Origin: Nesterenkonia xinjiangensis
Lineage (GTDB): Bacteria > Actinomycetota > Actinomycetes > Actinomycetales > Micrococcaceae
Length of the DNA: 64,000 bases
Reading direction: 5' to 3'
NCBI RefSeq assembly: GCF_013410745.1
Contig: NZ_JACCFY010000001.1
Coordinates: 1,984,001-2,048,000, forward strand
The notes under the pieces are model-generated. The model was not told the origin of the DNA. It saw nothing but the letters and a program-made list of their open reading frames with translations, and ran no database searches. Shown in pieces: positions 4,379-25,585 of the stretch (position 1 is the stretch's first letter; each line of letters starts with the position of its first letter). The position numbers and the translations under genes are program-made.

Positions 4379-4379
4379 C

Positions 4380-5525: not shown

Positions 5526-5575
5526 CATGAGGTGATGCGCCGCCCCGGGTCGCAGACAGTCTGAGACGTCACCGC

Positions 5576-5605
5576 TTGACAAGCAGAGGCGTCGCCAGCT
5601 GATCT
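5576..5605 (+). promoter_or_regulatory. Possible sigma70-like promoter for the second DUF5819-HTTM pair
   Basis: TTGACA at 5576-5581 and TGATCT at 5600-5605 with an 18-bp spacer, 43 bp upstream of the GTG start. The -35 is consensus and the -10 is weak. Confidence 0.4.
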
Positions 5606-5647
5606 GTTTCCGAAACTTCTCCCATCGCACCAGAATGACGAGGCCCC

Positions 5648-10536: not shown

Positions 10537-11165
10537 GGAGTGTCGACAGAGGTCGCGGTGACCTCCCAGATCACCTCGGTGGTGTCAGCCTGGACGAAGT
10601 CATCGTCGCTGGCCGAGACTTCGAAGCACAGCAGCACCGGGGTCCCGGCGGCTCCGTCACCGGCGGTGAGGTCGAAGGTGGTGGTGCTGCCGATTCCGGT
10701 GCTCAGGTCCGCACCTGAGGCCACCGAGGTGCCGGAGGAGGCGTCGGCGGCATTGCAGTTGTCAGGGTCCGCGTAGACCTCATAGGACATGTGGTCAGCA
10801 TTCTCACCGGAGGAGGAGACCACGCCGATGCCGTCAGAGGCCTCCACGGTGCCGTTGATCGTGGTGTCTGCGTCCAGCCGCACATAGAACGGGGCGTAGA
10901 CCGTCTGGCCCGGAGTCATGTTGTCCGCGGCGAAAGTCAGCTGAGCCGCCTCGGCGGCGGTGTCGTGCTCGTCATAGTCGCTGCCGTCGGTGGACCCCTC
11001 CAGGTTGAACGAGGCCGAGCCGAACAGCCCTTCGGCGAACTCGGAGTCGTTCCAGGCCGCCAGGGTGACAGCGGCGCCGACGCCGAGGACGAGGCCTCCG
11101 GCGAGCACGGCTTGGACCTTGCGGCGGCGGGTGGTCTTCTGCTCGGGCGTGCGGTTCTCGGTCAT
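10533..11165 (-). CDS. SipW-dependent-type signal peptide protein (TasA/camelysin-like), copy 1
   Basis: 210 residues from ATG 11165, chosen because GAGGGGA lies 6 nt upstream and the alternate signal peptide then begins at once (MTENRTPEQKTTRRRK, hydrophobic core, TLAAWNDSEFAEG). The mature region is acidic and beta-rich (ASFNLEGSTDGSDY) and parallels the next gene, so the two arose by tandem duplication; two cysteines (DNCNAA and VLLCFEV) are conserved in position. It is the first gene of the minus-strand operon running to 8034. A promoter-like sequence lies about 90 bp upstream. The likely role is a secreted structural or matrix protein. Confidence 0.8.
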   Translation of the reverse strand: MTENRTPEQKTTRRRKVQAVLAGGLVLGVGAAVTLAAWNDSEFAEGLFGSASFNLEGSTDGSDYDEHDTAAEAAQLTFAADNMTPGQTVYAPFYVRLDADTTINGTVEASDGIGVVSSSGENADHMSYEVYADPDNCNAADASSGTSVASGADLSTGIGSTTTFDLTAGDGAAGTPVLLCFEVSASDDDFVQADTTEVIWEVTATSVDTP

Positions 11166-11251: not shown

Positions 11252-11281
11252 AATGTAATGCGCGTAACCGAGTCCCGGCAA
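11252..11281 (-). promoter_or_regulatory. Possible promoter of the SipW operon with TACGCGC motif
   Basis: On the minus strand TTGCCG (11281-11276) and TACATT (11257-11252) are 18 bp apart. The sequence TTACGCGCATTA directly precedes the -10. A similar TACGCGCGTAA occurs upstream of the neighbouring HEPN gene (12754-12763), suggesting a shared regulator. Confidence 0.45.
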
Positions 11282-11299: not shown

Positions 11300-12628
11300 T
11301 TAGTCCAGGGCGGGTGCGAGCCGCCGAAGCAGGGGGTTCCGTGCGAGGCCACGTGCCCACGCACTGGAGGGCACGCCCAGGTCACGCAGCAGGTTCAGCA
11401 CCACCACTGCGGCGGTGATGCCGACCAGTTCCTGCAGCTGGGCCGCTGAGTACCCGGAGGCCTCCCCGGTGTGGGTGAAGGAGTTCCTGACCCGCGCGGC
11501 CCGGTCCGCCCACTCTTGTGCCGGCAGGTTGACGGTGATCGTCTCGTCCAAGGAGACCCGCTCCGCCATGGCGGCGAGCTTGATCCGCAGTGTGGCGTCC
11601 TTGCGCTGGCGCTTGGAACGGCCGTCAGTGGTGGCGAACAGGGCCTCGGCCGAGGCGACGAGCACCAGGAGGTTCATCTCCGCGAAGCGGTGCGGTGAGC
11701 GCAGCGCGCCCATGAAGAGATCCACGGCGACCCGATGCTGGAGCCGGAGGGCATACCACCGGGGCAGCAGGGTCTCGAAGGGGGCGTCAGCAGAGGAGAA
11801 CACCAGGGTGCCGCCGCCGGCGGGCGGCCCGGCGTGGGCCAGGCCCTGCCGCCAGAACAGCGCGGCGTCAGGGGAATCCTGGTCTGTGCGGAGCTGCGCC
11901 CATAGGGGAGCGGGGGGCGCCAGGGTGGCCAAGGTGATCAGGTCCTGCACGGTGTGGAAGTGCTGGCGGACCTCGTCGACGGACAGGCCTGGGCCCTCAG
12001 CACTGAGCCGCATCGACAGCGGAGCCGGCCGGTCCTGCGCCTCCGGACCGAGCGGGCCCTGGCCGGGGCTTTCGGCTGCTGAAGGGCCTGCGGCGGCGCG
12101 CTCCACGGTGAAGTGCAGGGAGTGGGCATCGCGGGCGTGTGTGGTCAGGCAGGGCACAGCGATCCGCACGGGATCGATCGGCCCTGCGTCGAGGTCGTGC
12201 GTCGTCGCCGAGCCGGCGGGAGTCATCCATGAGGCGAGTTCCGGAATCTCGGCGACGGCCTCCTGGAAGCAGTGCTCGTCGGCCGAGTCCACTCGTGCGC
12301 CGCGCAGCACCACATCTGCCACCAGATCCTCTGCGGAGGCCTTGTTCTCGGGGTTCTCGGGGTCGGCGAACTCGAGTCCTGTGACGCCCAGCAGCGTGAT
12401 CGGTTCGCCCGGGATCTGCCCGGCGGATGAGCCCGTCTCCCCGTGGCAGACGGCGTCATCGGCGGTCGGAGCGCCGGAGGCTGCGAGCGCGCGTGTGGAG
12501 CTCGCCGACGGTTCCCCCAGTATGAGCCGGCCGCCGGTGGAGATGCTGAAGGTCAGAATGCCGCCGCGACGGTCAGTCGCGGCGGCCGCGGGCCACCAGG
12601 TGCCCGAGAGTCGATGGTGCAGGGTCAC
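11300..12628 (-). CDS. ApeA-like HEPN domain protein, copy 1
   Basis: 442 residues from GTG 12628 (GAGGAA Shine-Dalgarno 9 nt upstream; no nearby ATG fits). The N terminus (LSGTWWPAAA...GGILTFSISTGGRLIL) matches the ApeA N-terminal beta domain as I remember it. The C-terminal ~130 residues are a HEPN domain: SAEALFATTDG, a helical basic stretch (RSKRQRKDATLRIKLAAM), then RNSFTH at residues 381-386, a canonical Rx4H RNase motif, and a final helix ending LLRDLGVPSS. ApeA proteins are known anti-phage HEPN ribonucleases, activated by unknown means. A full-length paralogue (24203-25585) lies in the exopolysaccharide operon. The gene sits 134 bp upstream of the SipW/TasA-like operon on the same strand. 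Regulatory or defence use is inference. Confidence 0.7.
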   Translation of the reverse strand: MTLHHRLSGTWWPAAAATDRRGGILTFSISTGGRLILGEPSASSTRALAASGAPTADDAVCHGETGSSAGQIPGEPITLLGVTGLEFADPENPENKASAEDLVADVVLRGARVDSADEHCFQEAVAEIPELASWMTPAGSATTHDLDAGPIDPVRIAVPCLTTHARDAHSLHFTVERAAAGPSAAESPGQGPLGPEAQDRPAPLSMRLSAEGPGLSVDEVRQHFHTVQDLITLATLAPPAPLWAQLRTDQDSPDAALFWRQGLAHAGPPAGGGTLVFSSADAPFETLLPRWYALRLQHRVAVDLFMGALRSPHRFAEMNLLVLVASAEALFATTDGRSKRQRKDATLRIKLAAMAERVSLDETITVNLPAQEWADRAARVRNSFTHTGEASGYSAAQLQELVGITAAVVVLNLLRDLGVPSSAWARGLARNPLLRRLAPALD

Positions 12629-13189
12629 AGTAGGGATTCCTCAGAGCGGAAGGGTATGTCGCAGTCCCGCAGAGTGAACCTCGCAGGCGGGGTTGCGGGC
12701 AGGGTCGGGGGTGTCGCCCCAGCCTTGTCACGACTGCGTGCCAGACTTCAGCTTACGCGCGTAGCCGCACGACGGGGCGACCGTCATAATGCACTCATTG
12801 AAGCACCACTCGGCGGCCGGGGTCGAAACTCGTCAGTCACATTCTTCTGACCTGGGGCTCGGCCAAAGCGGGTGGGCACTCTGCCTGCCTGAGCAGATCA
12901 CTGCGGATGCCGGCTTGCGCCGATGTCCTCCGATCCAGGGGGCGGTCAGAGCGCTTGCACAGAGACAGGGGGAATTCCACAAACATTTTCTATTGGTTTA
13001 AATTTTGATGTAGTCTTGGCATAGTTCATGGTAATTCATTTCGTTTCGGGAACCAACTGTTGCGGTTAATCGAGTTGTCCTGCTCCTGACATGGGTGGCC
13101 TGTTCTTCGCGTTCCAGGCCGGGGCATCCGAACCAGAGCGGATGTCCTTCCGGCTGCAGCCGTAGCGGGGAACCAGCGATCAAGGACGA
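12629..13189. other. 560-bp divergent intergenic region with palindrome and AT-rich island
   Basis: This separates the minus-strand HEPN gene from the plus-strand LuxR pair. It contains the perfect palindrome TACGCGCGTA (12754-12763) and an unusually AT-rich stretch (about 12979-13061, including ttggtttaaattttgatg) in otherwise GC-rich DNA, which probably carries the LuxR-pair promoter. I see no convincing coding sequence, and could not pick one -35/-10 pair with confidence. Confidence 0.6.
12754..12763. promoter_or_regulatory. Palindromic operator-like site TACGCGCGTA
   Basis: A perfect 10-bp palindrome about 130 bp upstream of the HEPN gene start. On the minus strand its context (CGGCTACGCGCGTAA) resembles CGGTTACGCGCATTA near the SipW operon promoter. 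LuxR-type HTH proteins commonly bind such dyads, and two LuxR proteins are encoded just downstream. Confidence 0.35.
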
Positions 13190-15727
13190 ATGATGCTCGA
13201 GACTCACCCGTTCGGCCTCGAGAGGGCCCCTTGTCTCCCTCGAGGAGCGTCCTTCGCGCTCGCCCGCGCCGCTCTGAGTCGGCACATCGCCGACGCCGTG
13301 GCACCCGTGGTCCTGATCTCGGGACCATACGGCTCTGAACGAACTGGACTGATCCCTCACAGCGCGCCCCGGGGATGGGCCGCTGTGGAGCTCGTCCCCT
13401 CGCAGGAGATCCAGGGCGCCCCACTGACGCGTCGGCTCGAGGTGCTGGACAATTTCAGCGGACCTGCTCATGAGGCGGCCACGTCGCTGCTGTCGGACCC
13501 GGCGGCCGATCCCGACCTCGAGCGCATCTTCGTCTTCGCCCACGCGGACCTGCTCGACGACGAATCGCTGGCCGTCATCGACGAGCTGGTCCGCAGCCAG
13601 CGGATCGTCGTCCTGCTGTCCAGCATGGCATCGTCGCACCTCGCCCTGCGGTTCGCCAGGGTGCTGAACAGTCCGCGCGGCCTCCACCTGGAGTTGGCCC
13701 CGCTGAGCCTGGAAGAGACTCAAGACCGTCTGGCTCAGCAGCTCGAGGAGCCTCCGACGGCGGCTCTGACCCGGTATCTCCACACATGCTCTGACGGAGC
13801 CCCAGAGAGTCTCATGCGCCTGGCCCGCAGAGGACTCGCCGAAGGATGGATCGGCTCGGTGGACGCGCGCAGCGTGGTGCTGGGATCTCCGTCATGGATG
13901 GATCACCTGGAGGCTCAGGCCAGCCTCGATCGCCTGCGCACCAGAATCGGGGGTATCGCCCTCGATGCCCTGCGGGCCGTGGCCCTGCGCGGCGAGATGC
14001 CACTGGACGAGGCGATGTCGGTGTTCCAGCCGCATCGAACCCTCTTTTCGTTGGAAGAGTCCGGACTGCTCATGATCAGGCCGGAAGGGGTCTCGGTTCG
14101 CCGAGAGACTCACCGACAGGCACTCATCATGGCCCGCGAGCCGGTCTCTGACCCACCCTCGACCCCGGAGGGTGTTCTCCATACACGCTCCGTCGGTGCA
14201 GAGATCACCAGCGAGGCGGCACGCCGCACCGGCTGGGCGCTGCTCGAACGGGGCCTGCTGGCACAGGCGCGGTTCGTCGCGGAGGCCCTGCCGACCCAGG
14301 ACGCCTCACGGGGGACCCTCGAGGCCTGCTGTGACCTGGTGGCTGGCGCCCCTCGCCGGGCACTGCGTCAGCTCGTACCGATCGCAGCCGCCGGTGACCT
14401 GACCGCTGCCGCACTCATCGCCCTCATCCACGCCACTGTGCTCGAGGACACAAGAGCGGGGGCGCAGAGTCTCTCGAACCTCTCCGCCATGGCCGGCCAG
14501 GCGCCGGAGGTCCAGGACCTCATCGAGGCGCTCCGGCAGATCCACCTGTCACTCTGCGAGGACATGGGCAGCGAGGCTCCCGACGAGTCTGACCAGCTGC
14601 CTCCCAGCACTGAGGCCACCAGCCCCTGCCGGACACCCGCGACGTCAGCACTCGACCTGGCGGGCATGGGCCGCGTGCTCCTGCAAGTCCTGGAAGCTTT
14701 CTCTGAGGCCGCCGGGCAGTCGCCGTCCGCACCTGCGACAGTCGCGAAGATCTCGGAGATCTCCTTCCATGACGTCCCGATCGTCTGTGCCTCCTGGGCG
14801 GTCTCCTGTCTGGCAGCTGCCCGACTCCTGACTCTGCCGCAGGAGGACATCATTCCCGAGAGGTGGGTCCGGGGCGAGCCTCCGGGAAGATCGCTCCTGC
14901 GGGTCAACGCCACTGAGGCGCTCGAGATGCTGCACGCGATGATGTCCGGGGAGGGCACCGATGATCTGCGGCGCCGTATGGAGGACCTCTGGGCGCAGTA
15001 CGAGGGTGGACTGCCCCAGGGCTTCCTGCGGCGGCCCTTGCTGGAGGCCCTCGACTTCGCCGTCGAGGGTGGCCGGACGGAGGACCTTCTTGGCCCCACC
15101 GAGTACATTCCCCGACGGTCCGGCTCCATCACGGAAGCCTCCTGGGGCCACATGCTCACGGCGGTGGGCCGTGTGCTGGGTCTCGCCGCACGCGGTGACG
15201 TGAGCCAGGTCGACGTCGCACGGGAGCTTGCACCCGCATGCCTGGTGATGCGCAGACTGGTGATCCGGTGCGTAGTCCTGCGCGGAATTCACGAGCTTGA
15301 CGCCCCAACGCTGGCGGTGCTGGAGGCCCAAGCGCGCGCGTTGGACGTGGAGGACGAGATCCTCGACCTGTTGACGGCTCGGCTCACCGGAGACGCTCCG
15401 CGCTTCGCCATGGCTGCCGAACTGGTGGAGATCCACTGGCCTCGCAGCGGACTTGGCCGCAGCATCGGGGGGCGTCTCAGTGACCTGCGAAGAGCCGCGG
15501 AAGTTACCACGAAGACAGCAGGGCAGCGCGACCTCCTCTCGGCCCGGGAGCAGGAGGTCGCCGATCGTGTCTTTCAGGGCCTCTCGCTCGCCGAGATCGC
15601 AGACTCCCTGCGGATCTCCATCCGCACGGTGCAGAGCCACGTCCGCAACACCTATCGCAAGCTGGACATCAGGTCACGTACCGAACTGCGAGCCCGCCTG
15701 ACCGCCACGTCCCTGGACCGCCCATGA
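13190..15727 (+). CDS. Large LuxR/LAL-type transcriptional regulator, first of a coupled pair
   Basis: 845 residues, the size of LAL/MalT-like regulators. The C-terminal LuxR HTH spans about residues 783-835 (LSAREQEVADRVFQGLSLAEIAD, TVQSHVRNTYRKL). The N terminus has a STAND-like position VVLISGPYGSERTG where the Walker A Gly-Lys-Ser/Thr is degenerate (no Lys), and FVFAHADLLDDESL in a Walker B-like position, so ATP binding is doubtful. The middle is helical and repeat-like. It starts at ATG 13190, 5 nt after AAGGA. The next regulator overlaps it by 4 bp (ATGA). By position the pair probably controls the flanking matrix loci, directly upstream of the exopolysaccharide operon and divergent from the HEPN/SipW genes. 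Confidence 0.8.
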   Translation: MMLETHPFGLERAPCLPRGASFALARAALSRHIADAVAPVVLISGPYGSERTGLIPHSAPRGWAAVELVPSQEIQGAPLTRRLEVLDNFSGPAHEAATSLLSDPAADPDLERIFVFAHADLLDDESLAVIDELVRSQRIVVLLSSMASSHLALRFARVLNSPRGLHLELAPLSLEETQDRLAQQLEEPPTAALTRYLHTCSDGAPESLMRLARRGLAEGWIGSVDARSVVLGSPSWMDHLEAQASLDRLRTRIGGIALDALRAVALRGEMPLDEAMSVFQPHRTLFSLEESGLLMIRPEGVSVRRETHRQALIMAREPVSDPPSTPEGVLHTRSVGAEITSEAARRTGWALLERGLLAQARFVAEALPTQDASRGTLEACCDLVAGAPRRALRQLVPIAAAGDLTAAALIALIHATVLEDTRAGAQSLSNLSAMAGQAPEVQDLIEALRQIHLSLCEDMGSEAPDESDQLPPSTEATSPCRTPATSALDLAGMGRVLLQVLEAFSEAAGQSPSAPATVAKISEISFHDVPIVCASWAVSCLAAARLLTLPQEDIIPERWVRGEPPGRSLLRVNATEALEMLHAMMSGEGTDDLRRRMEDLWAQYEGGLPQGFLRRPLLEALDFAVEGGRTEDLLGPTEYIPRRSGSITEASWGHMLTAVGRVLGLAARGDVSQVDVARELAPACLVMRRLVIRCVVLRGIHELDAPTLAVLEAQARALDVEDEILDLLTARLTGDAPRFAMAAELVEIHWPRSGLGRSIGGRLSDLRRAAEVTTKTAGQRDLLSAREQEVADRVFQGLSLAEIADSLRISIRTVQSHVRNTYRKLDIRSRTELRARLTATSLDRP

Positions 15728-18240
15728 CTCAGCTGCCTCTCCACATCAAGCCCACGGGTCTGAGACTCCCTCCCGACATGTCTCGTTGGTTCCTCGAAGA
15801 CCCCTCGGGAGACTCCTGGATCCTCCACCTTCCTGGCTACTGGGGAGTGGACGGCATGCTCGAGGAGCTCCACCGTGCCGGGCCGGTGGCGGTGATCGAC
15901 GGCATCGGCGGCACCGTGCCCGCGCCGCCGGAGGTGGGCCCTTCCGGGCTCTCGGGTGAGGCGGCGAACGGCCTTGTCGTCCTGCTCTGGCCCGGGCTCC
16001 TCGCCGACGACGTGCTGGACGACGTACTGGCGCTGTTCCTGAAGGGCCGACGCCGCCTGCTGGTCATGGTCCGCTCCTCCCACGACCTCCCGGTGCGACT
16101 GGCCGACCTTGAGGCCGCCGGCCGGCTGCGCAGCGTCATCCCGGGCAGCCTCAGCGTCCGCGACCTGGGAGCGCAGGCGCGCCGGAGACTGGGCGGGCCG
16201 ATGTCCCTGATGGTGCTGCGCCGACTCCAGCGCCTCTCCGCCGGACGCCCGGTGCTGGCCGACAGGCTGCTGGAGCTGGCCCAGGATGTCGGCGTCATCC
16301 GGGAGTTCTCCGGGTACTGGGAGTGGGACGGGGACGAGGAGGCGCTGCACGGCGCGCTGGCCGAGGTGGCGGACGGCGTGCTGACGGGACTCGATCAGGA
16401 GGAGATGGAGCTCCTCACCCTGGTCGCCGTCACCGGCCGCTTGCCCGAACGCCACGCCGTGACCGCCTCGGGAGACCGGGCGTTCCGGAGCCTCATGGCA
16501 CAGGGAATCCTGGCTTACGAGGACCAAGCTGCCCGTGGCTTCGCCGACATCAGGATCAGTGCCGAAGCTGTGCGCTCCATGATCGTCACCAGAATGCGGT
16601 GGACCGACCACCTGCGCTGGTGGTACGAGCGGGGCCGCCACATCCCGGCGGACTCCGGGGGCATCGCCTCCTGGACTGCACTGACCTGGTGGCGGGTCCG
16701 GGCCACAGGCCCGATCGACGACGCCACCGCTGAGAAGCTGGCGCGCCAGAGCCTCGCCGGCTCCTGGTATCGGACGGTGCGAGAGCTCGTGGACCTGACC
16801 GAGGTCCCGTCCGCCACCCTGCTCGTACTGGCGGCTCGCGCCGACCACGCCCTCGGGGATGTCGACTCCGCCCTGCGTCGGCTCGCCAGGCTGCCCTCTG
16901 CGGCAGATTCCGCAGAGATCCGCCAGGCGATCCTGGTCGCCGAGCGGATCCGGATCTTCCACCCGGAGCGTGCTGGAGCCGTGGCGGCCGAGCTGCGCCG
17001 ACGTGCCGGCGACGAGTCTCCTACACCGGTCCTGGACAGGATCCGGGCCCTCGCCCACGACGCCGGCGCCACTGACGAGCTTCTCGGGGAGCTTCGCGAC
17101 CTGCGTGCTGTCGTGAACTGCGAGGAGTCCCTGGTCAGCCTGCTCTGGGCCGGTGTCCTGCTCGGCTTCAGACACCAGCCGGACATCGGCCGGGAGGTCC
17201 TCTCCACGCTGATCGACGCCTTGCGTCGCGAAGGAGGGTATCCGGACCTGGAGGAGTGCGCGGTGGCGGTGCTGCTGCTGATCTCCGCCACCTCCGGATG
17301 GCGGATCGACATGCTCCGGGTCGAGACGGATGTCTCGAACGAGCGGCGCCTGCGCAGCCCCGGGCTCGCCGGCGTGGCGGACCAGCTGGCCGCCGTCGCG
17401 GCTCTGCAAGATGACAGGCTGCACCTGGCGCATCGGCACGCGTCCTCAGCGGCTCGGATCCATGCGCGCGGAGACAGCTTCGGCCAGCACTGGTTCAGCC
17501 AGGCCCTGGCCGTGGGCGCGGCCGGGTGCATGCCGGGGCGCTCACCCGCCCGAGAGGAGAGCCCTGTGGGCGCGCTGGGACCCGCTGAGGGCTTCCCCTG
17601 GCTCCGGCTGGTCGGCGAAGGGCTGAGGGACCTGGCCGCAGGGCATTCCCCCGAAGAGCTGAGAACCCGTCTGGAAGGCCTCGCCGCAGAGGCCGAGGAG
17701 GCGGGGGAGACGGTCCAGGCGCAGGTGCTTCTGCTGCTGGCGCTGCTGCGCGGGTCCCCTGCCGCCGCCCAACGGGTGATGGCGTCCCCGTGGAAGGACG
17801 ATCCGGGCCGAGCCCGGCTGACCGCCCTGCTCGCCGAGGCCCAGAACACTGACGCTGTGGCACGGACGCTCGACGTCGCCGAACACCTCCTTGTGACACA
17901 CTCACGACTGTTCGGGCTCTCGGTGCTCGCGCGCCTGTGGGACCGCCGGGCGCAGCTGGAGCGTCCGCTGCGGATCCGGCTGATCAATCTGGTGCTGGAC
18001 ACCCAGCGCCGTGAGGGTGAGGATCCGAGCGTCCTCAGCAGGACCTTCGACCTCGAGCTCGACGCCCGAGAGCGGGCCGTCCTTGAAGGGCTGCGCGCTG
18101 GACACCCCATCTCCCGGATCGCCCGCGGGCTCAGCCTGTCGCCGCGCACTGTCGAAGCCGCGATCTCCGCGCTGCTGCACCGCTTCGGCTGCGACAATCG
18201 GATGGAGCTTCTCTCCCTCCGCCTCGGAGCCAAGGACTAG
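15724..18240 (+). CDS. Large LuxR-type transcriptional regulator, second of the pair
   Basis: 838 residues, with a C-terminal LuxR HTH at about residues 779-838 (ARERAVLEGLRAGHPISRIARG, SPRTVEAAISALLHRFG). There is no recognisable Walker A or B motif at all, so the N-terminal ~300 residues look like a STAND-derived domain that has lost nucleotide binding. Middle segments are helical (many Arg/Leu/Ala), as in LAL regulators. It is translationally coupled to the preceding gene, and the two proteins have equal length and layout though little obvious identity, suggesting an old duplication and possible heterodimer. A 307-bp gap separates it from the exopolysaccharide operon. Confidence 0.75.
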   Translation: MTQLPLHIKPTGLRLPPDMSRWFLEDPSGDSWILHLPGYWGVDGMLEELHRAGPVAVIDGIGGTVPAPPEVGPSGLSGEAANGLVVLLWPGLLADDVLDDVLALFLKGRRRLLVMVRSSHDLPVRLADLEAAGRLRSVIPGSLSVRDLGAQARRRLGGPMSLMVLRRLQRLSAGRPVLADRLLELAQDVGVIREFSGYWEWDGDEEALHGALAEVADGVLTGLDQEEMELLTLVAVTGRLPERHAVTASGDRAFRSLMAQGILAYEDQAARGFADIRISAEAVRSMIVTRMRWTDHLRWWYERGRHIPADSGGIASWTALTWWRVRATGPIDDATAEKLARQSLAGSWYRTVRELVDLTEVPSATLLVLAARADHALGDVDSALRRLARLPSAADSAEIRQAILVAERIRIFHPERAGAVAAELRRRAGDESPTPVLDRIRALAHDAGATDELLGELRDLRAVVNCEESLVSLLWAGVLLGFRHQPDIGREVLSTLIDALRREGGYPDLEECAVAVLLLISATSGWRIDMLRVETDVSNERRLRSPGLAGVADQLAAVAALQDDRLHLAHRHASSAARIHARGDSFGQHWFSQALAVGAAGCMPGRSPAREESPVGALGPAEGFPWLRLVGEGLRDLAAGHSPEELRTRLEGLAAEAEEAGETVQAQVLLLLALLRGSPAAAQRVMASPWKDDPGRARLTALLAEAQNTDAVARTLDVAEHLLVTHSRLFGLSVLARLWDRRAQLERPLRIRLINLVLDTQRREGEDPSVLSRTFDLELDARERAVLEGLRAGHPISRIARGLSLSPRTVEAAISALLHRFGCDNRMELLSLRLGAKD

Positions 18241-18547
18241 CCAGCTCGCTCCTCGGAGCCCCTCTCGGGCCGCCTCTGTGATGCCTCTGACCTTCCGGGG
18301 CATTGTGCTGACCTGCCGTGATGCGGAGAGTGCGCAGGGCAGTCTCCGCCCGCATGGTTCTCCTCGGGATCCTCTGCTGACCTGACCCTCGGGCAAGGCG
18401 CACACGGCGTCGACGACCCCGCGGGTCAAGACGCAGGGCCCGGCTACAGACCCTGGTGCAAGAGCGGATTCCGCCCTCTCCCGCCCGGCCCTAGGTTGAG
18501 AAGTGTCGCTTCGGTCGCCGATCGACGACGACCGAAGGGAAGATGAG
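18241..18547 (+). promoter_or_regulatory. Exopolysaccharide operon leader with hairpin at 18509-18537
   Basis: No gene is visible in this 307-bp stretch. A 9-bp perfect inverted repeat (cttcggtcg / cgaccgaag, 11-nt loop, 18509-18537) sits immediately before the Shine-Dalgarno (gggaag) of the WecB-like gene. A TAGGTT at 18492-18497 could be a -10 element. The hairpin may affect translation initiation or mRNA stability. Confidence 0.4.
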
Positions 18548-19339
18548 ATGGGTGGGAATCCCCCTGATCAGGCTCGTTCCGGAGCCTTCACGCAGAGCGC
18601 ACGTGTTCCGGTGCTGGATGTGAACGTCACTCCGTTGACTCGTGACCAGCTGCTGAGCAGCGTCGCCACGGCGATCGGCGGGGGCCGCCGGCTGACCATT
18701 GCAGGTCACAATCTGCATTCCGTCTACCTCACGCGAACCGACGCGCAGTTCCGCCGGTTCTACGAGGATGCCGAACTCAGGCTCATCGACGGCATGCCCC
18801 TGCTCTCCGCTCTTGACCTCACCGCCCTGTGCGGCGGGCGCCCCCGGTGGGGTTCGCGGCACCGCCTGGGATCCACCGATTGGATCCCCCAGGTGATGCA
18901 CCTGCCGAGCGTCCGTCGCATCGTGCTGTTCGGCGCCTCCGAGGCCTCCAACAGACAGGCGGTGCAGACGCTCGGAGAGAGGGCCGAGCAGACCGAGCTG
19001 CTCGGCATCCCCGCCGACCCCTGGAATCCTGAGGACCTCGACGCCGTCGCGGCGCAGATCCGGGCATTCGGCCCGCAGCTGCTGCTGATCGGCATGGGCA
19101 TGCCGCTGCAGGAGCGACTCGCCGCAGCACTGCGTGCCTGCACCAGCGTGGCAGTCATCGCCACAGTGGGCGGGGCGATCGACCAGCTCTCCGGCACACA
19201 GTCCCTGGCGCCCCGCTGGATCGGCAGAACCGGTCTGGAGTGGGCCTGGCGGCTGGCCTCCGACCCGCGACGATTCGCCGGTCGCTACCTGGTGGAGCCG
19301 TTCCAGCTGGCCAGGCTGATCCTGCGAGGTGCGGCATGA
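18548..19339 (+). CDS. WecB/TagA/CpsF family glycosyltransferase (GT26)
   Basis: 263 residues from ATG 18548, favoured over GTG 18503 because of the AAGGGAAG Shine-Dalgarno and because upstream codons encode a hairpin. Family marks are the conserved NLHSVYL stretch, LRLIDGMPLL, and GMGMPLQE near the end. Members transfer N-acetylmannosaminuronate or a related sugar from a UDP donor to a lipid-linked acceptor on the cytoplasmic face. It is the first gene of a tightly coupled operon running to 28283 and overlaps the next gene by 4 bp. The role is addition of an early or branch sugar to the exopolysaccharide repeat unit; the exact sugar is unknown. Confidence 0.8.
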   Translation: MGGNPPDQARSGAFTQSARVPVLDVNVTPLTRDQLLSSVATAIGGGRRLTIAGHNLHSVYLTRTDAQFRRFYEDAELRLIDGMPLLSALDLTALCGGRPRWGSRHRLGSTDWIPQVMHLPSVRRIVLFGASEASNRQAVQTLGERAEQTELLGIPADPWNPEDLDAVAAQIRAFGPQLLLIGMGMPLQERLAAALRACTSVAVIATVGGAIDQLSGTQSLAPRWIGRTGLEWAWRLASDPRRFAGRYLVEPFQLARLILRGAA

Positions 19340-20322
19340 GCGCCCCCAGCAACGGACACCCGCACACCACACCGCAGGTCACCGCCGTGATCCCCACCGT
19401 CGGCCGTCCGAGCTTGCGTGCCGCGGTCCGCTCGGCCCTGAACCAGACGATCCCGACCGAGCCGCTGGTCGTCGTCGATGATCCGGATGCGCTCTCCGCT
19501 GTCCAGACCCGGCTCCGCGGGCTCGACTATCGACTGGTCTCCACCGCGGGACGTCAAGGAGGCGGCGCCGCCCGCAACCTCGGCGTGCAGTTCGCCGAGA
19601 CCCCGTGGGTGGCGTTCCTGGATGATGATGACGACTGGGTCGCCGACAAGTCCGAACGTCAGATCGAGCACGCGCTGGGTCGCGCGCCCACGACGGCTCG
19701 CAGGTCCGAGAACGGCGCCCCGGGCACCGACTCGGTACCCGCTGACGTGGCCGTCTCCTGCCGGGCGCTCCTGGTGGGAGCCGGCACCCGGGCCGTGCCG
19801 GAGCGCCCCTATCGATCCGAGACGGACGAGCTCGGCGGTGTCGCGCCCGGAGTGGGCGCCTATGTGCTTGACCGCTCCACCGTGCGCCTGCGCCGGCACT
19901 TCCTGCAGACCTCGACCCTGCTCTGTGCGCGGGAGACCGCGCTGGACGTGCCGTGGCGCGAGGAGCTGACCCGCCACCAGGACTGGGACTGGCTGATCCG
20001 GCTCGAGAGCGCCGGAGTCCACATCGACACGGTCCCGGACATCCTGGTGCGTGTCCAGCAGGGCAGCCCGGGTTCCGTCTCGCGCAGTGCGAACTGGTTG
20101 GGGAGCCGGGACTGGCTGGAATCCCTGACTCCCGACGACGTTCCACCGGCCGCCCGCGCCGACTTCACCGCCTCCGTGGTGGCCCGCGGAGCGCTCGCCT
20201 CCGGCGACGTGAGCCGTGGTCTCGGCGAGCTCTTCAGCGGTCTGCGCGCAGGAGCCCACCCGGCAGCCTTGCTGGTGGGGCTCAGCGGACTGGCTGTCAC
20301 GAGGCGAGCGCGTCATGGCTGA
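19336..20322 (+). CDS. Family 2 glycosyltransferase
   Basis: 328 residues from ATG 19336 (ATGA overlap with the upstream gene). The GT-A fold shows VTAVIPTVGRPSLRAAV at the N terminus, the nucleotide-binding DD (VVVDDPDA) and a DDDDDW acidic cluster around residue 98 that would hold the metal and UDP-sugar. The DWDWLIRL segment around residue 220 fits the acceptor and catalytic region of GT2. There are no membrane helices, so it is cytoplasmic or peripheral. It overlaps the following flippase gene by 8 bp. It presumably extends the lipid-linked repeat unit started by the sugar transferase at 22524-24104. Confidence 0.8.
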   Translation: MSAPSNGHPHTTPQVTAVIPTVGRPSLRAAVRSALNQTIPTEPLVVVDDPDALSAVQTRLRGLDYRLVSTAGRQGGGAARNLGVQFAETPWVAFLDDDDDWVADKSERQIEHALGRAPTTARRSENGAPGTDSVPADVAVSCRALLVGAGTRAVPERPYRSETDELGGVAPGVGAYVLDRSTVRLRRHFLQTSTLLCARETALDVPWREELTRHQDWDWLIRLESAGVHIDTVPDILVRVQQGSPGSVSRSANWLGSRDWLESLTPDDVPPAARADFTASVVARGALASGDVSRGLGELFSGLRAGAHPAALLVGLSGLAVTRRARHG

Positions 20323-21673
20323 GCGCAGCTGGGCGAACGCCTTCCTCCGCACCGCCGGGCTGCGCGTCGCCGTGCTGCCGCTCTCGGCCGTGCTGACGCT
20401 GACCAGCGCCGGGCTCACCATGCACTTCGCCGGCGCGGCCGCCTTCGGGCTCATCACTTTGGTGGCCCAGCTGCGCATGGCGCTGCCCTTCGCGGACCTG
20501 GGGCTCGGCGCCGCCGTCTCCCGGGCAGTGGCCCAGGCCGACTCCTCGGTGGAGGCGGATCGAGCGGTGGCGGAGCTGATCCGCCGCACCAGCCGGCTGC
20601 TGGGCATCGTCGGTCTGATCGGGACCTTCGCCGCCGTCCTGGTGGGGTACGCCGGATTCTGGTCCTGGCTCTTCAGCGCCCCGGAGGCGCTGCACGGTCA
20701 GCTCGACGTCGCCATGACGATCTCGCTGGTGCTGTTCTTCCTCACCCTGCCGCTCGGACTGGCCGAACGGGTCCTCGTCGGTCAGGACCGGGCTGATCTC
20801 CTGGTCCTCCTGGGGCTCGTCCCCGGCGCGATCACCCTGGTCTATGTCTATGCCGCCGGCGTGGCGGGGGTGAGCCCCATGTGGCTGGCCCTCGGACTGC
20901 CATTGGGGATGGTCATCTTCCTGCTGCTCTGCCGCCGGGCGGCGGACTATCCCACGGCAGGCCGGACAGCCGGGGGCGGCCGCGCGACGGCGGGCCCCTC
21001 GATGACGCACATCCTGCGCGGTGGACTGCCGGTGCTGCTGGCCTCGGTGGGATTGGTCCTGCTGGAGCAGCACGGCCGCATCGTGCTGGCGGCCACCGCC
21101 ACCGCCGAGCAGCTCAGCGAGTACGCGCTGGCCCTGCAGCTGTACATGCCCATCTACTCGGTGATGCACATGGCCGCCATCGTGTTCTGGCCGCGATTCT
21201 CCGTCTCGCTGGACCGGAGCCTGTGGCTGCGCGCCAATGCTGCGCTGATCGGCCTGGGGAGCGCCGCCGCCGTCGGGTATCTGTGCCTGGCCCGCCCGGT
21301 CTCTCGACTGATCAGCGGCGGAGAGCTTCAGCCCTCCTGGTCCCTGACCATCGCGATGACGGTCCTGCTGGTGGCGCAGTCCGCGCACCTGACACAGGTC
21401 AACCTGCTCACCGACCGTCCCGGATACCGCCGCCAGGCCGCGATGTCCTGCTCGGCGCTGGTGTGCGTGGTGCCGCTGACCCTCCTGGGGGTCCAGCACG
21501 GGCTCGGTGCGACGGCGCCCGCGGTGGCGATGATCGCCGTGATCGTCGTGCTGCAGGTCATCCCCGGGATGCTGGTGGCCGCTCGACGGGTCAGCCCGTC
21601 CGCACCGAGAATCTCTGACCTTCCTGCTGACCACTCGACCGTTCAAGACCTGACGAGGAGCACCCCCCGATGA
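20315..21673 (+). CDS. Polysaccharide flippase (Wzx-like, MATE/MOP superfamily)
   Basis: 452 residues with about 12 hydrophobic segments. The N terminus (LRVAVLPLSAVLTLTSAGL) and the LPFADLGLGAAVSRAVAQ stretch are typical of oligosaccharide flippases. It should move the lipid-linked repeat unit across the membrane. ATG 20315 overlaps the end of the GT2 gene, and the next gene overlaps by 4 bp. The assignment rests on topology, motif and operon context, and no substrate can be read from the sequence. Confidence 0.75.
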   Translation: MAERSWANAFLRTAGLRVAVLPLSAVLTLTSAGLTMHFAGAAAFGLITLVAQLRMALPFADLGLGAAVSRAVAQADSSVEADRAVAELIRRTSRLLGIVGLIGTFAAVLVGYAGFWSWLFSAPEALHGQLDVAMTISLVLFFLTLPLGLAERVLVGQDRADLLVLLGLVPGAITLVYVYAAGVAGVSPMWLALGLPLGMVIFLLLCRRAADYPTAGRTAGGGRATAGPSMTHILRGGLPVLLASVGLVLLEQHGRIVLAATATAEQLSEYALALQLYMPIYSVMHMAAIVFWPRFSVSLDRSLWLRANAALIGLGSAAAVGYLCLARPVSRLISGGELQPSWSLTIAMTVLLVAQSAHLTQVNLLTDRPGYRRQAAMSCSALVCVVPLTLLGVQHGLGATAPAVAMIAVIVVLQVIPGMLVAARRVSPSAPRISDLPADHSTVQDLTRSTPR

Positions 21674-22527
21674 GGACCACTCTGCGACGTCTCCTGGAAC
21701 CCGTGCCTGATCCGCTCGTGCGGCACATGATGTATCGCCGCCGCTTCGGCCGCTGGGGAGACTTCCGTGACGCGCCCCGGTTCACCGAGCTCCTCACCCG
21801 GAGGATGCTGCAGGAACGGAGCCAGCAGATCGCCTGGACCTGTGACAAGGTCCGGATGAAGGCCCATGCCCTCCGGATCTGCCCGGACCTGCGCGTGCCC
21901 GAGACCCTCTGGCGCGGCTACGACCTCGCCGACCTCGACCTGGCCGGGCTGCCGGACCGCTGGGTGATCAAGCCGAACCATGCCAGCGGCATGGTCGCCT
22001 TCGGGGACCGGGAGACGACGCCGGCGCAGCTCCGGCGCCTCACCCGCGGGTGGCTGCGCACCTATGACCGGGCGGCACTGGGGGAGTGGGCCTATCGCTG
22101 GGCCGACCACTCCCTGCTCGTCGAGCCCGACATCAGCCAGGACCGGGGTAGGGATCTTGTGGACTACAAGTTCTACGTGTTCCACGGTGAGGTGAAGATG
22201 CTGCACCGCTCTTCGGGCCGGTTCACCGCCGGCCACCGGGAACGCTTCTACTCCCCGGACTGGCAGGTGCTGGACCTCTTCAACGGCGTCTCCCAGGAGC
22301 CGGAGTCCCCGGCACCGGCTTCTTTGGAGCGGATGGTGGAGCTCGCCGAGGCCCTGGCGCGCGGGTTCGAGTTCATGCGCGTGGACTTCTATGAGATCGA
22401 CGGCGTCCCCTGGTTCGGTGAACTCACCCCCTATCCCTCGGGCGGCATGGACCCCTTCGAACCGGAGCAGTTCGACCTCGAGATGGGTCGATGGTGGACG
22501 GGTCGGCAGGAGGCGGGGATCTCATGA
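21670..22527 (+). CDS. TupA-like ATP-grasp protein
   Basis: 285 residues. KVRMKAHALRICPDLRVPETL, WVIKPNHASG and FYEIDGVPWFGELTPYPSGG match the TupA-like ATP-grasp family, which in polysaccharide clusters is associated with attaching amino acids or related groups (named after teichuronopeptide synthesis). Lys and Asn in IKPNHASG would bind ATP, and Asp/Glu in RVDFYEIDG and FGELT would bind metal. It is coupled at both ends by 4-bp overlaps, so it belongs to the repeat-unit pathway. It suggests the exopolysaccharide may carry an amide-linked substituent; that is inference. Confidence 0.75.
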   Translation: MRTTLRRLLEPVPDPLVRHMMYRRRFGRWGDFRDAPRFTELLTRRMLQERSQQIAWTCDKVRMKAHALRICPDLRVPETLWRGYDLADLDLAGLPDRWVIKPNHASGMVAFGDRETTPAQLRRLTRGWLRTYDRAALGEWAYRWADHSLLVEPDISQDRGRDLVDYKFYVFHGEVKMLHRSSGRFTAGHRERFYSPDWQVLDLFNGVSQEPESPAPASLERMVELAEALARGFEFMRVDFYEIDGVPWFGELTPYPSGGMDPFEPEQFDLEMGRWWTGRQEAGIS

Positions 22528-24104
22528 GCCTCGAGATGCTGCCCACCTCCGAGCTCCGCAGCCTGAGCCACCCGGGCGTCGACCTCCGCCCGCCCTCCGC
22601 CTGGCGGGTGGTCCCGCCGCTGCAGGTCCAGGGTCTGCCCGCAGGCCTCGGGACGACGACGCCAGGCGGGACGAGCGAACTCCGGCGCTGGAGACGGGGT
22701 CTGGCCCGGCGCATCGCGGTCAGCGACGGCCTGATCATCCTCCTGGTCCTGGGAGGCCTGCACCTGGCCGGAGCCCTCACCTCCACCGCGCAGGGCCTGC
22801 TGGCCTCCGGCGGTGTGCTGGCCCTGTGGATGCTCCTGCTGGCCCTCTGCCGCACCCGGAACGCCCGGATCCTCGGATCCGGGGCCCAGGAGTTCCTCGG
22901 CCTCGCGGCGGTCTCGGCCACGGTGATGTGGATGACCGCCGTGGGCAGTCTGATCCTCGATGAGGCCTCGCTGCGGGCCGGGGCGCTGCTGGCCGTCCCA
23001 GCCGGAGCCCTCCTGCTGTTCGTCGGCAGGCTCGTCTGGCGCCATCGCCTGCGCCGCCACTGGGACACCGGTGTGGGGCTGCACCGCGCACTGGTCATCG
23101 GGGAGGACGGCAAAGCCCGGCACATCGCCGACCACCTGCGCCGCCTCGGACCGGTCAGCGGCTACCAGGTGGTGGAGCTGCTCGTCCGCGAGGCCGGGCA
23201 GCCCCTCTCTTCTCCCGGCCCGTCCACCCTGGCAGGACTCACGGAGACCGAGGCCGCGGATCCTGAGCAGATCATCCGGCACGCACGGGACGCGATCACC
23301 CGCGACGCCGTCGACACCGTGATCCTCACCAGCGCCGACCAGCTCACGCCCCGCGCGCTGCGCGAACTCGGATGGGCGCTGGCCGCGCTCGACGTCGACC
23401 TCGTCGTCGCACCCTCCCTGAGCGAGATCAGCCAGGGCAGGCTGCATACGCGCAGCGTGGACGGCATGCCGCTGATGCACGTGGACTCCCCGCGGCTCAG
23501 CGGCGGCGCCGCGGCGCTGAAGAGGGCCTTCGACATCGTCTTCGCCCTGACGGCCCTGCTGGCCATCGCTCCCGTGCTGGTGGCCGCGGCAGTGGCCGTC
23601 AGGCTCGACTCGCCGGGGCCGGTGTTCTTCTCCCAGACCCGCGTGGGCCTGCGTCACTCGTCGTTCCAGATGCTGAAGTTCCGGTCGATGGTGGTCGACG
23701 CGGAGGCGCGTCGTGAGGAGCTGCTGAGCACCTCCGAGGGCAACGCGGTGATGTTCAAGATGCGTCGCGATCCTCGGGTGACCCGGGTAGGGACAGTCAT
23801 CCGCAGATACAGCATCGACGAGCTGCCACAGTTCCTCAACGTGCTGCGCGGAGACATGTCCGTGGTCGGGCCGCGGCCGCCGCTGGTCAGCGAGGTCGAG
23901 GCCTATGACGAGAACTCCCAACGGCGCCTGCTGGTCAAACCCGGGATCACCGGGCTCTGGCAGGTCGGCGGCCGCTCGGACCTCAGCTGGGAGGATTCGG
24001 TCCGCCTGGACCTCTACTACGTGGAGAACTGGTCGCTGGCCGGGGACGTCGGCATCGTGCTGCGGACCCTCCGTGCGGTCCTGCGGGGGGCGGGTGCCTA
24101 CTGA
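22524..24104 (+). CDS. Exopolysaccharide polyprenyl glycosylphosphotransferase (initiating sugar transferase)
   Basis: 526 residues. About four N-terminal membrane helices (LIILLVLGGLHLAGAL onward) precede a cytoplasmic Rossmann-like domain and the C-terminal bacterial sugar transferase domain. The latter shows KRAFDIVFALTALLAIAP, SPGPVFFSQTRVG, MLKFRSM, RYSIDELPQFLNVLRGDMS, VGPRPPL and KPGITGLWQVGGRS, all hallmarks of the WbaP/WcaJ family. It transfers a sugar-1-phosphate to undecaprenyl phosphate and starts repeat-unit synthesis. The start at ATG 22524 overlaps the upstream stop. A 98-bp gap to the HEPN gene is the only sizeable gap inside the operon. Confidence 0.9.
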   Translation: MSLEMLPTSELRSLSHPGVDLRPPSAWRVVPPLQVQGLPAGLGTTTPGGTSELRRWRRGLARRIAVSDGLIILLVLGGLHLAGALTSTAQGLLASGGVLALWMLLLALCRTRNARILGSGAQEFLGLAAVSATVMWMTAVGSLILDEASLRAGALLAVPAGALLLFVGRLVWRHRLRRHWDTGVGLHRALVIGEDGKARHIADHLRRLGPVSGYQVVELLVREAGQPLSSPGPSTLAGLTETEAADPEQIIRHARDAITRDAVDTVILTSADQLTPRALRELGWALAALDVDLVVAPSLSEISQGRLHTRSVDGMPLMHVDSPRLSGGAAALKRAFDIVFALTALLAIAPVLVAAAVAVRLDSPGPVFFSQTRVGLRHSSFQMLKFRSMVVDAEARREELLSTSEGNAVMFKMRRDPRVTRVGTVIRRYSIDELPQFLNVLRGDMSVVGPRPPLVSEVEAYDENSQRRLLVKPGITGLWQVGGRSDLSWEDSVRLDLYYVENWSLAGDVGIVLRTLRAVLRGAGAY

Positions 24105-24202
24105 GCCTCGGCAGGGACCACAGGACCCGCGCCGGTGAACCGACGCTCAGAGTCGCCGACCGACAGGCCGGCCACCCACGTGACGACGATCAGGGGAACC
24201 CC

Positions 24203-25585
24203 ATGACACCACACTCATCCCGCGAGGCCGCCGGCTGCTGGTGGCCCGCAGGAGCACCAGGGTCGGCGTTGTCCGGCACGGTCACCGGTGCGCTGCTCGG
24301 TGAGGAAGCGCCCCCCGCGGCCCTTCGACTGACCCTGGAGGCGTCCGCACCGGAGAACGCGCAGGCGATGATCGCCGCCCTGCGCCGCCCGCCGGCGGTG
24401 CTCCACGGCCTCCTCGACGGCCGCGCCGCCACGGCCTGGACGCGTGAGGTCATGGCGGAGACCGGCACCCTGTACGTCGAGCTCGAGGTGCTCCTGATCG
24501 GGGCGCATCTCATGGGTTCCGAGGATCGCCGTCTGCAGGAGGCCGAGATGCGTCTCGACAGCCTCCAGGTGGGGCAGATCCTGGTGGGTGCCGGGCCCTG
24601 GACCGGCTCGCTCCCGCTGGGCGGGGACGCATCCGACTCCGCACCCCCGGCGGGCACCGGTCAAGCCTCGGACGCAGGACGCTCGCGGATCCTCGTGGAG
24701 CGAGTGGAGGAGTCCGAGACGGTGATGCGAGTGCATATCCTGCCGAGCCGAGCGGCCTCGGTGCCGGAGATCCTCGAGCAGCTGAGAACCGTCACTGATC
24801 TGCTGGCCTTCGCCTGGCTCGAGACGTCCCCCGCGCTCACCTTCGAGGCAAGGGTCCACGGCGACGACAGTCGCCTCCTCGACGACTACCGGGTGACCTG
24901 CTCCGCACCGGGGACGCATCTCGGTGCGGGAGAGCGGGCACGCCCGCGCGTCGGGGGACCGCTGTTCACCGGCGAGCAGCGGCCCTTCGCGAAGCTGCTG
25001 GAGGCCTGGCGCGTCCTGCGCACCCGACACCGCACCTCGTTGACGATGCTGGTGGCCGCCAGGGCGCTCCCCGAGGAGTTCCAGGAGGCTGCGCTGCTGG
25101 TCCTGCTCGGCTCTGCGGAGGCGCTCTACGCCACCTCCTCCGGCCTGCGGCGCCGGGAGATCAAGGACTCGACCCTGCGGCGGAAGCTGGAGCACCTTGC
25201 CGACCGTGTCAGCTTCCACGAGGTCATGCCGCACCAGGTGACCGCCGCCGCATGGGCGGAGCAGGCGGCCAGGCTGCGGAGCACCTTCACGCACAGCGGG
25301 CGGGTGGACTCCGGGTCCCAGGCCGAGCTGCGTCATATGGCGAAGCTGACCGCCGGCGTCGTGGTCCTGGCGCTGCTGCGCGAGCTGGGCATCCCTGCAG
25401 CGGAGGGCCGGCAGCGACTGCCCGGCCACCTGGCGCTGCGTGACGACATGCCTACACCTCGTGGCACGCCTGAGCGACGCCGGGGCGACCCCGCTCAGGG
25501 ACCGCCACCAGCACGCGGGGGGAAGACCCCGACCCCTCGTGACGTCGGAACCCGGCCCCAGAGGCCAGCGAGGAGATCATCATGA
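24203..25585 (+). CDS. ApeA-like HEPN domain protein, copy 2, within the exopolysaccharide operon
   Basis: 460 residues, with AGGGGA before ATG 24203. It is a paralogue of the 11300-12628 product. The N terminus has the same Gly-x-Trp-Trp start (GCWWPAGAPGSALSGTVTG); a beta-rich middle follows; the HEPN region has SAEALYATSSGLRRREIKDS, LRRKLEHLADRVSFHE and RSTFTH (residues 359-364, Rx4H). The usual polar residue after Arg is Ser rather than Asn. A Pro/Arg-rich tail of ~60 residues, absent from copy 1, ends the protein. Its stop overlaps the Wzz-like gene (ATGA), so the two are translationally coupled. Known ApeA proteins act in phage defence. A HEPN protein inside a capsule-type operon is unexpected; control of matrix mRNA or protection of matrix-producing cells are both possible. 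Confidence 0.7.
   Translation: MTPHSSREAAGCWWPAGAPGSALSGTVTGALLGEEAPPAALRLTLEASAPENAQAMIAALRRPPAVLHGLLDGRAATAWTREVMAETGTLYVELEVLLIGAHLMGSEDRRLQEAEMRLDSLQVGQILVGAGPWTGSLPLGGDASDSAPPAGTGQASDAGRSRILVERVEESETVMRVHILPSRAASVPEILEQLRTVTDLLAFAWLETSPALTFEARVHGDDSRLLDDYRVTCSAPGTHLGAGERARPRVGGPLFTGEQRPFAKLLEAWRVLRTRHRTSLTMLVAARALPEEFQEAALLVLLGSAEALYATSSGLRRREIKDSTLRRKLEHLADRVSFHEVMPHQVTAAAWAEQAARLRSTFTHSGRVDSGSQAELRHMAKLTAGVVVLALLRELGIPAAEGRQRLPGHLALRDDMPTPRGTPERRRGDPAQGPPPARGGKTPTPRDVGTRPQRPARRSS

Follow-up and report, generated by a model that had tools for sequence, protein, structure and literature searches.

In Bacillus, SipW-TasA is a matrix operon. Among HEPN proteins, the HEPN toxins of MNT-HEPN pairs (PDB 7ae2 and 7ae8) are the closest solved folds to the two proteins described here. 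The published context of ApeA is defence in both PMC3710099, on the ApeA/BMEI1217 family, and PMC10952713, and its activation by deoxydinucleotides is named in a title cited within PMC13405049.

The stretch of Nesterenkonia xinjiangensis DNA analysed here (64,000 bp, the window) encodes two HEPN proteins. The first-pass annotation had placed a SipW-type operon beside one of them, an exopolysaccharide (EPS) operon around the other and two LuxR genes in between, and this arrangement is borne out by the gene map:

8034–8504, minus strand: small protein of no known family (no Pfam match; PF2B19 conservation 78%)
8501–9874, minus strand: SipW-type signal peptidase I with a C-terminal extension (TIGR02228 52.6, cut-off 51.85; Peptidase_S26 26.4, cut-off 22.9)
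9898–10536, minus strand: tasA2, SipW-dependent-type secreted protein, 212 aa (TIGR04088 28.9 bits, cut-off 19)
10533–11165, minus strand: tasA1, SipW-dependent-type secreted protein, 210 aa (TIGR04088 28.4 bits, cut-off 19)
11252–11281, minus strand: promoter-like TTGCCG-N18-TACATT, upstream of tasA1 and downstream of HEPN1
11300–12628, minus strand: HEPN1, ApeA_NTD1 plus HEPN_Apea protein, 442 aa, R381-NSFT-H386
13106–13132, minus strand: 27-bp element TTCGGATGCCCC-N5-GGAACGCGAA, upstream of HEPN1
13190–15727, plus strand: LuxR1, large GerE/LuxR-family regulator (GerE 54.5 bits)
15724–18240, plus strand: LuxR2, large GerE/LuxR-family regulator (GerE 34.2 bits)
18503–19339, plus strand: WecG/TagA/CpsF glycosyltransferase (PF03808 125.4 bits)
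19336–20322, plus strand: family 2 glycosyltransferase (PF00535 52.4 bits)
20315–21673, plus strand: Wzx-like flippase (PF01943 28.9 bits, cut-off 28.2)
21670–22527, plus strand: TupA-like ATP-grasp protein (PF14305 101.2 bits)
22524–24104, plus strand: EPS polyprenyl glycosylphosphotransferase (TIGR03025 400.8 bits, cut-off 295.55)
24203–25585, plus strand: HEPN2, HEPN paralogue within the EPS operon, 460 aa, R359-STFT-H364, N-terminal domain diverged
25729–27063, plus strand: Wzz-like chain-length protein (PF02706 29.1 bits, cut-off 25.5, on the longer frame from 25582)
27060–28283, plus strand: Wzy/O-antigen-ligase-like membrane protein (PF04932 23.3 bits, below the cut-off of 31.7)

Both the PF2B19 gene and the coding score point to 25729 as the Wzz start, so that 25582, which would overlap the HEPN2 stop, was set aside. 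The export operon resembles SipW-TasA of Bacillus in pairing a SipW-type peptidase with two proteins that have SipW-cognate signal peptides (TIGR02228 and TIGR04088 above cut-off), but differs in having no TasA/camelysin Pfam match, and a fibre role for its products is putative. Pfam gives no match on tasA1 and one unrelated match, below cut-off, on tasA2, and the Bacillus SipW model NF046067 scores the window peptidase at 34.2, far below its cut-off of 190.

HEPN1 and HEPN2 are true paralogues with 31% identity. The earlier suggestion of paired, full-length ApeA-like HEPN proteins stands as regards this paralogy, the HEPN folds, the R-x4-H motifs and the Pfam assignment of HEPN1, but HEPN2 misses both Pfam cut-offs; the N-terminal domain of HEPN2 has diverged, and the HEPN2 orthologue of Nesterenkonia sp. 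PF2B19 is without ~90 N-terminal residues. ApeA_NTD1 (Pfam cut-off 25.5 bits) scores 40.0 bits in HEPN1 of the window, 40.2 in that of Nesterenkonia sp. F and 33.2 in that of PF2B19, the best stretch being the first ~115–120 of 271 profile positions; it scores 13.9 bits, below cut-off, in the window HEPN2 and gives no Pfam match in the PF2B19 orthologue. HEPN_Apea (cut-off 24.4) is above threshold in HEPN1 of the window (26.0 bits) and sp. F (31.8), and below it in PF2B19 HEPN1 (23.5), window HEPN2 (20.8) and PF2B19 HEPN2 (19.4). The R-x4-H motif is intact in all five HEPN1/HEPN2 proteins and present in a third paralogue, HEPN3. The G006 and G009 relatives have only RILDLH near the corresponding place.

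As the first-pass annotation anticipated, profile searches place HEPN1 above the ApeA_NTD1 and HEPN_Apea cut-offs, and the structural matches are headed by HEPN chains: the HEPN1 model (pTM 0.72; HEPN domain mostly at pLDDT ~90, N terminus low) and that of HEPN2 have the HEPN helical fold, with HEPN toxin chains best in both structural lists. Foldseek alone gives HEPN1 no match at E 0.001, the best HEPN entry being at rank 48, and a sequence search of solved structures returns nothing for HEPN1 and, for HEPN2, a single weak match to a dsRNA-binding protein (E 0.24). Unlike the MNT-HEPN toxins, HEPN1 and HEPN2 carry an extra N-terminal domain and have no nucleotidyltransferase antitoxin among their labelled window neighbours. 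With ApeA, as presented in PMC3710099, they share the domain order, the Gly-x-Trp-Trp N terminus and the R-x4-H motif, and HEPN1 in addition has R-N within the motif and passes both Pfam cut-offs. They are however shorter, at 442 and 460 aa; in 14 ApeA proteins the longest frame spans ~478–533 aa. RNase activity, dimerisation, a trigger, growth arrest and a benefit to matrix producers are all predicted features of the pair.

HEPN1-type genes occur in three of 30 Nesterenkonia genomes, and each time HEPN1 immediately precedes the SipW-type operon, next to tasA1, an adjacency that persists although HEPN1 identity falls to 51% and 36%. In the two genomes where HEPN2 was detected, it sits within the EPS operon, flanked by the phosphotransferase and Wzz genes. 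A scan of genome contigs yielded three loci, all of them in PF2B19 or sp. F. Because the HEPN1 and HEPN2 adjacencies recur (3/3 and 2/2), the association with the export and polysaccharide genes has been passed on by descent and is not an accident of one genome. The proposed HEPN–matrix association holds in this lineage but does not extend to the homologues examined outside the genus, an outcome that the first-pass annotation had itself named as counting against it. A search with the HEPN1/HEPN2 alignment gave hits in 21 of 395 family genomes and 5 of 394 class genomes, sampled evenly from larger groups with four first-look candidates scored per genome; those examined outside Nesterenkonia (15 family, 3 class) are ApeA-like, one being a 157-residue frame, and whereas HEPN1 and HEPN2 sit with export and EPS genes, none of these 18 loci (0/15 and 0/3) has a BLAST match to the window SipW, tasA-like or EPS proteins. 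Conversely, no HEPN-like frame was found at 51 other tasA-like loci (three HMMs, E 0.1), some of which end at contig ends and five of which (L055, L060, L110, L126 and L147) are shorter than 9 kb; 40 loci came from the 39 of 58 tasA-positive family genomes outside the genus that were examined, and each HMM recovered the HEPNs of five control stretches. Eighteen further genus genomes with Wzz relatives (E 1e-15) have no HEPN2-type gene. HEPN1 has no tblastn match in plasmids or phages, and an ApeA-dominated alignment including HEPN1 gave no confirmed relative among viral contigs. Seen in so few relatives, the HEPN placement may be a lineage-specific link or may reflect passenger genes at a variable site.

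In the tree, HEPN1, HEPN2 and HEPN3 fall outside a set of 16 strong-ApeA rows (support 100/99), two of which are long branches. HEPN1 and HEPN2 are set apart, but a joint clade is not rejected (p-AU 0.142). HEPN3 is encoded in the same genome, where 40 bp separate it from a downstream vWA/DUF7507 protein gene; all three paralogues lie just upstream of, or among, envelope-type genes. The vWA relative in G002 is without HEPN3. Among the literature matches listed, none by title pairs HEPN with TasA or with EPS or biofilm matrix, the EPS match being an archaeal solvent-stress study, and the locus is not reported in those on SipW/TasA in Actinobacteria or Nesterenkonia biofilm genomes, nor in the passages of PMC8875376 that were examined. 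HEPN3 beside the vWA/DUF7507 gene, the HEPN1-linked upstream element and the promoter-like site between HEPN1 and tasA1 are new here.

The 27-bp element lies ~480–490 bp upstream of HEPN1, with ~0.5 kb of sequence without a recognised gene between them, and is kept while most intergenic sequence around it is not. Its 25-bp form occurs in three of 30 Nesterenkonia genomes, precisely the three with HEPN1 and always upstream of it, and it has a single site in its own genome with up to three mismatches allowed; the reversed pattern gave one match among the 30, in G008. In two genomes it lies in a divergent upstream region common to HEPN1 and LuxR1. Judging by its sequence, tasA1 keeps a putative promoter of its own, with similar promoter-like sites in G008, G024 and, without HEPN1, G023. 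The loose pattern arises in 0.7–2% of shuffles of the four regions, and a strict sigma-70 scan lists no promoter at 11252–11281.

Compared with PF2B19, HEPN1 (dN/dS 0.42) and HEPN2 (0.59, the highest) rank with the fastest-diverging of the 20 genes examined; against sp. F, the HEPN1 value rises to 0.63. The PF2B19 values indicate constraint, and dN/dS stays below 1 in each of the 23 comparisons. A high rate is by itself no mark of defence, since LuxR1 and SipW change at about the pace of HEPN1. Third-position GC of the HEPN genes resembles that of their neighbours and thus gives no sign of recent transfer.

The site upstream of tasA1 is variable. CopG-Fic/Doc genes adjoin the CoA-binding-protein gene in two related genomes; in G023 the pair is directly upstream of tasA1, while in G013 further genes separate it from a partial tasA1 match. 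This toxin-antitoxin-like pair thus occupies in G023 the same site as HEPN1, but its protein families are unrelated. Of the two roles first proposed, that of a defence-type gene housed among matrix genes agrees somewhat better with the data than control of matrix mRNA does, because related species carry CopG-Fic/Doc at the tasA1 site. We tentatively favour, at a little under an even chance, the reading that these are ApeA-derived conditional RNases, which one small Nesterenkonia lineage has retained as accessory genes in a variable island for surface polymers. The N-terminal sensor-type domain would sense a trigger, upon which a HEPN dimer would cut cellular RNA at its R-x4-H site and halt growth, as an abortive or dormancy effector; HEPN1 would border the sipW-tasA-like operon on its upstream side, a place that CopG-Fic/Doc can take instead, and HEPN2 would stand inside the EPS operon with its sensor domain probably decaying. 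This draws on the observed paralogy, HEPN fold, intact R-x4-H, inherited position, variable site content, fast divergence with dN/dS below 1 and HEPN1-linked element. The HEPN toxin chains heading both structural lists, the neighbour-like third-position GC, the promoter-like site of tasA1 and the defence context of ApeA in print also favour it. Against it, PADLOC picked out no further defence gene, either in HEPN3 or in 19 additional proteins of the window (2 to 32323), and the constant HEPN1–tasA1 adjacency, with three paralogues by envelope-type genes, is unlike random defence cargo.

The same points favour dedicated post-transcriptional matrix control, possible though unproven, in which sipW-tasA-like transcripts would be trimmed by HEPN1 and those of the EPS operon by HEPN2, the two perhaps forming a heterodimer governed by both LuxR regulators: the HEPN1 and HEPN2 positions are constant, HEPN3 directly precedes the vWA/DUF7507 gene, HEPN1 shares its divergent, element-bearing region with LuxR1 in two genomes, and other defence genes go unrecognised nearby. 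The HEPN-free tasA-like loci, the 18 Wzz genomes without HEPN2, the promoter-like site of tasA1 itself and the G002 vWA relative all speak against such control, which we consider unlikely if credible. Neutral hitch-hiking, with a single entry into a variable region, retention by descent and a functionally meaningless adjacency, would suit the single gain that may have occurred in the HEPN1 genomes, the truncated PF2B19 HEPN2 and the high dN/dS of HEPN2 and of HEPN1 against sp. F; it too appears unlikely given the retained R-x4-H (5/5), dN/dS below 1 throughout, adjacency surviving at 51% and 36% identity, and an upstream element outlasting its surroundings. That HEPN1 is the toxin of a toxin-antitoxin pair, with a protein or RNA antitoxin encoded upstream, would agree with its closest solved folds and the gene-free ~0.5 kb, but is highly improbable: six-frame translations of three genomes reveal no conserved small frame by eye, Rfam offers nothing better than E 0.23 (13.9 bits against 100), and none of the sequence is unusually stable as RNA in all three. 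Rather doubtful, finally, is co-option of a small ApeA-derived HEPN family for matrix biology, in which the two proteins, perhaps joined in a mixed dimer, would adjust how much matrix is made or eliminate infected producers of it by cutting their RNA, with expression tied to LuxR through the HEPN1-specific element.

Should the link prove functional, an RNase family known from phage defence would have been taken into service to control or guard the production of extracellular polymers, which would connect the study of defence with that of biofilms in a bacterium that is tractable. Should it not, the locus would still show instructively how toxin-like genes, whether HEPN or Fic/Doc, can appear at a single variable position ahead of a sipW-type operon. 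At E 0.01, PADLOC gave four matches in three proteins: two to CARF, both at the HTH end of LuxR1, and one each to SAVED_TM and SspA. These look like shared HTH or chance segments, and none is taken as real.

The two ApeA-like HEPN genes of Nesterenkonia xinjiangensis (G000, genome size 3.57 Mb; window G000:C1:1984001-2048000) are paralogous, as the first-pass annotation had claimed, with 31% identity between their products (E 3e-38), and the genome encodes a third paralogue:

Window 11300-12628, minus strand: HEPN1, upstream of and codirectional with tasA1, tasA2, sipW and a small protein gene (gene calls)
Window 24203-25585, plus strand: HEPN2, between the EPS glycosylphosphotransferase and Wzz genes (gene calls)
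G000:C1 485686-486606 (L004:8687-9607): HEPN3, 306 aa with motif RNQLAH, third HEPN paralogue of the window genome

The gaps are 134 bp (HEPN1-tasA1), 98 bp (phosphotransferase-HEPN2) and 143 bp (HEPN2-Wzz), and the operons are predictions from strand and gap lengths. Within the SipW-type operon proposed earlier, NCBIfam models confirm the peptidase as SipW-type and the signal peptides as SipW-cognate; the proposed Wzx/Wzy EPS operon holds in part, with WecG, GT2, Wzx, TupA, EPS sugar transferase and Wzz recognised but Wzy_C below cut-off (Pfam and NCBIfam). GerE is the C-terminal domain of both large regulators, LuxR1 and LuxR2. PADLOC reveals no convincing defence gene among 19 further window proteins. 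The protein encoded at window 2-3433 is large and of secreted type and carries choice-of-anchor G and MG2 domains; its relatives adjoin the sipW operon in G008 (Nesterenkonia sp. PF2B19), G024 (Nesterenkonia sp. F), G023 and G015. Window 3551-7689 holds two tandem gene pairs convergent with the sipW operon, the second being DUF5819 and HTTM (Pfam) and the first its relative (BLAST); one such pair is seen in each of G008, G024 and G023.

The siting of these ApeA-derived HEPN genes alongside export and EPS genes is real, inherited and lineage-specific. G008 repeats the full arrangement (MG2 protein, sipW-tasA, HEPN1, two LuxR genes, EPS with HEPN2, sulfhydrylase block), its HEPN2 starting ~90 residues later than that of the window. 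In the draft genome G024, where no Wzz relative is found at E 1e-15, HEPN1 likewise lies immediately before tasA1, and its contig stops ~1.1 kb further on. HEPN1 is 51% and 36% identical to its G008 and G024 counterparts, compared with 84% and 70% for tasA1, and the HEPN1-tasA1 adjacency has thus persisted through strong sequence change. A single gain of HEPN1 may account for all three genomes and is compatible with the tasA1 tree, in which the HEPN1 rows were counted against two CopG-Doc rows only and the placement of G024 is unsettled; as perhaps one event, the three are not independent witnesses.

A general HEPN-matrix system is unsupported beyond these three genomes. A genus search with HEPN1 matches 6 of 30 genomes (HEPN1 type in three, ApeA above both Pfam cut-offs in G018, a short HEPN3-like protein in two); the family and class searches match 21 of 395 and 5 of 394. 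The neighbourhood survey of homologues speaks against such a general association: at the 15 family and 3 class ApeA loci read, BLAST (E 1e-6) gives no match to the window's SipW, tasA-like or EPS proteins, nor do gene calls show such genes beside ApeA in G018 or G049. Conversely, tasA1-like proteins occur in 14/30 genus genomes (E 1e-3) and 72/395 family genomes (E 1e-5), and none of 51 such loci scanned, the three HEPN1 loci excluded, has a HEPN-like frame. Strong ApeA proteins form a separate 16-row set (support 100/99) on a tree that left out a 157-residue frame. Two ApeA genes (L018:8954-10468 and L017:9162-10646, two genomes) both lie near a putative ychF-like GTPase gene, perhaps a common insertion site. 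L061 (G003) has 14 tasA1-like matches, many clustered, with more than one SipW-like gene.

Upstream of HEPN1, each of the three genomes carries one copy of a 25-bp pattern, TCGGATGCCCC-N5-GGA-N2-GCGA, and the other 27 of the genus have none at <=1 mismatch; a reversed-pattern control gives one match, in G008, and a fuller form is unique in G000 at <=3 mismatches. Its 11-bp core lies 492 (G000), 480 (G008, HEPN1 start shifted one codon) and 486 bp (G024) upstream of HEPN1; a second count with slightly shifted end points gives 477, 483 and 486 bp. The remaining upstream region has only short blocks in common. The element may be a regulator site; LuxR1 is its divergent neighbour in two genomes (G000 and G008), and a different gene takes that place in G024. 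The HEPN1-tasA1 interval contains a promoter-like TTGCCG-N18-TACATT, corresponding to TTGCTC-N17-TACATT in G008 and TTGCCG-N17-TAGATT in G024; G023, which is without HEPN1, has TTGCAG-N18-TATTCT upstream of tasA1. When the four regions are shuffled, the loose pattern used to find these sites still arises in 0.7-2% of cases, and a strict consensus scan finds no promoter in the HEPN1-tasA1 interval.

The interval between the CoA-binding-protein gene and tasA1 is variable. In other Nesterenkonia it holds a CopG-Fic/Doc pair in G023 and likewise in G013, there followed by further genes before the tasA1 match (residues 1-172) at a locus with no SipW match; large LuxR-type genes in G022, fragmented in G015; and a Wzz-like gene in G018. 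In these two CopG-Fic/Doc genomes, both relatives, the CopG-type and Fic/Doc genes (L051:6489-7054 and L052:2356-2921) adjoin the CoA-binding-protein gene, and those of L051 lie immediately before tasA1. ApeA is counted among HEPN phage-defence proteins in passages of PMC10952713 and PMC7699616, and part of PMC3710099 describes its N-terminal domain as beta-rich. By extension from ApeA, the N-terminal domain of HEPN1 would sense a signal and lead to RNA cutting, and HEPN2, its sensor apparently being lost, may rely on a partner. We rate highest the reading that the HEPN genes are defence-like cargo lodged in a variable island of surface-polymer genes. Matrix control by the HEPN genes, one of the two readings first proposed, and neutral hitch-hiking rank below this and about equal to each other. 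GC3 is 0.85 for HEPN1 and 0.84 for HEPN2, with neighbours similar. Against G008, dN/dS is 0.42 for HEPN1, 0.59 for HEPN2 (the maximum among 20 genes compared), 0.44 for SipW, 0.43 for LuxR1, 0.19 for tasA1 and 0.07 for the sulfhydrylase, and against G024 it is 0.63 for HEPN1, 0.48 for tasA1 and 0.29 for tasA2, figures that are rough since dS reaches 1.1.

HEPN3, which has no Pfam match, lies 40 bp upstream of a gene for a DUF7507 protein in which vWA is below cut-off. The HEPN3-like proteins of G006 and G009 (L019:3237-4181 and L020:9645-10598) lack the Rx4H motif where it usually lies and are possibly inactive relatives; their genes adjoin a putative ligD-like gene, not matrix genes. The G002 relative of the vWA/DUF7507 protein (85% over residues 2-563) is without HEPN3 at its locus and is surrounded by putative transposase-like frames.
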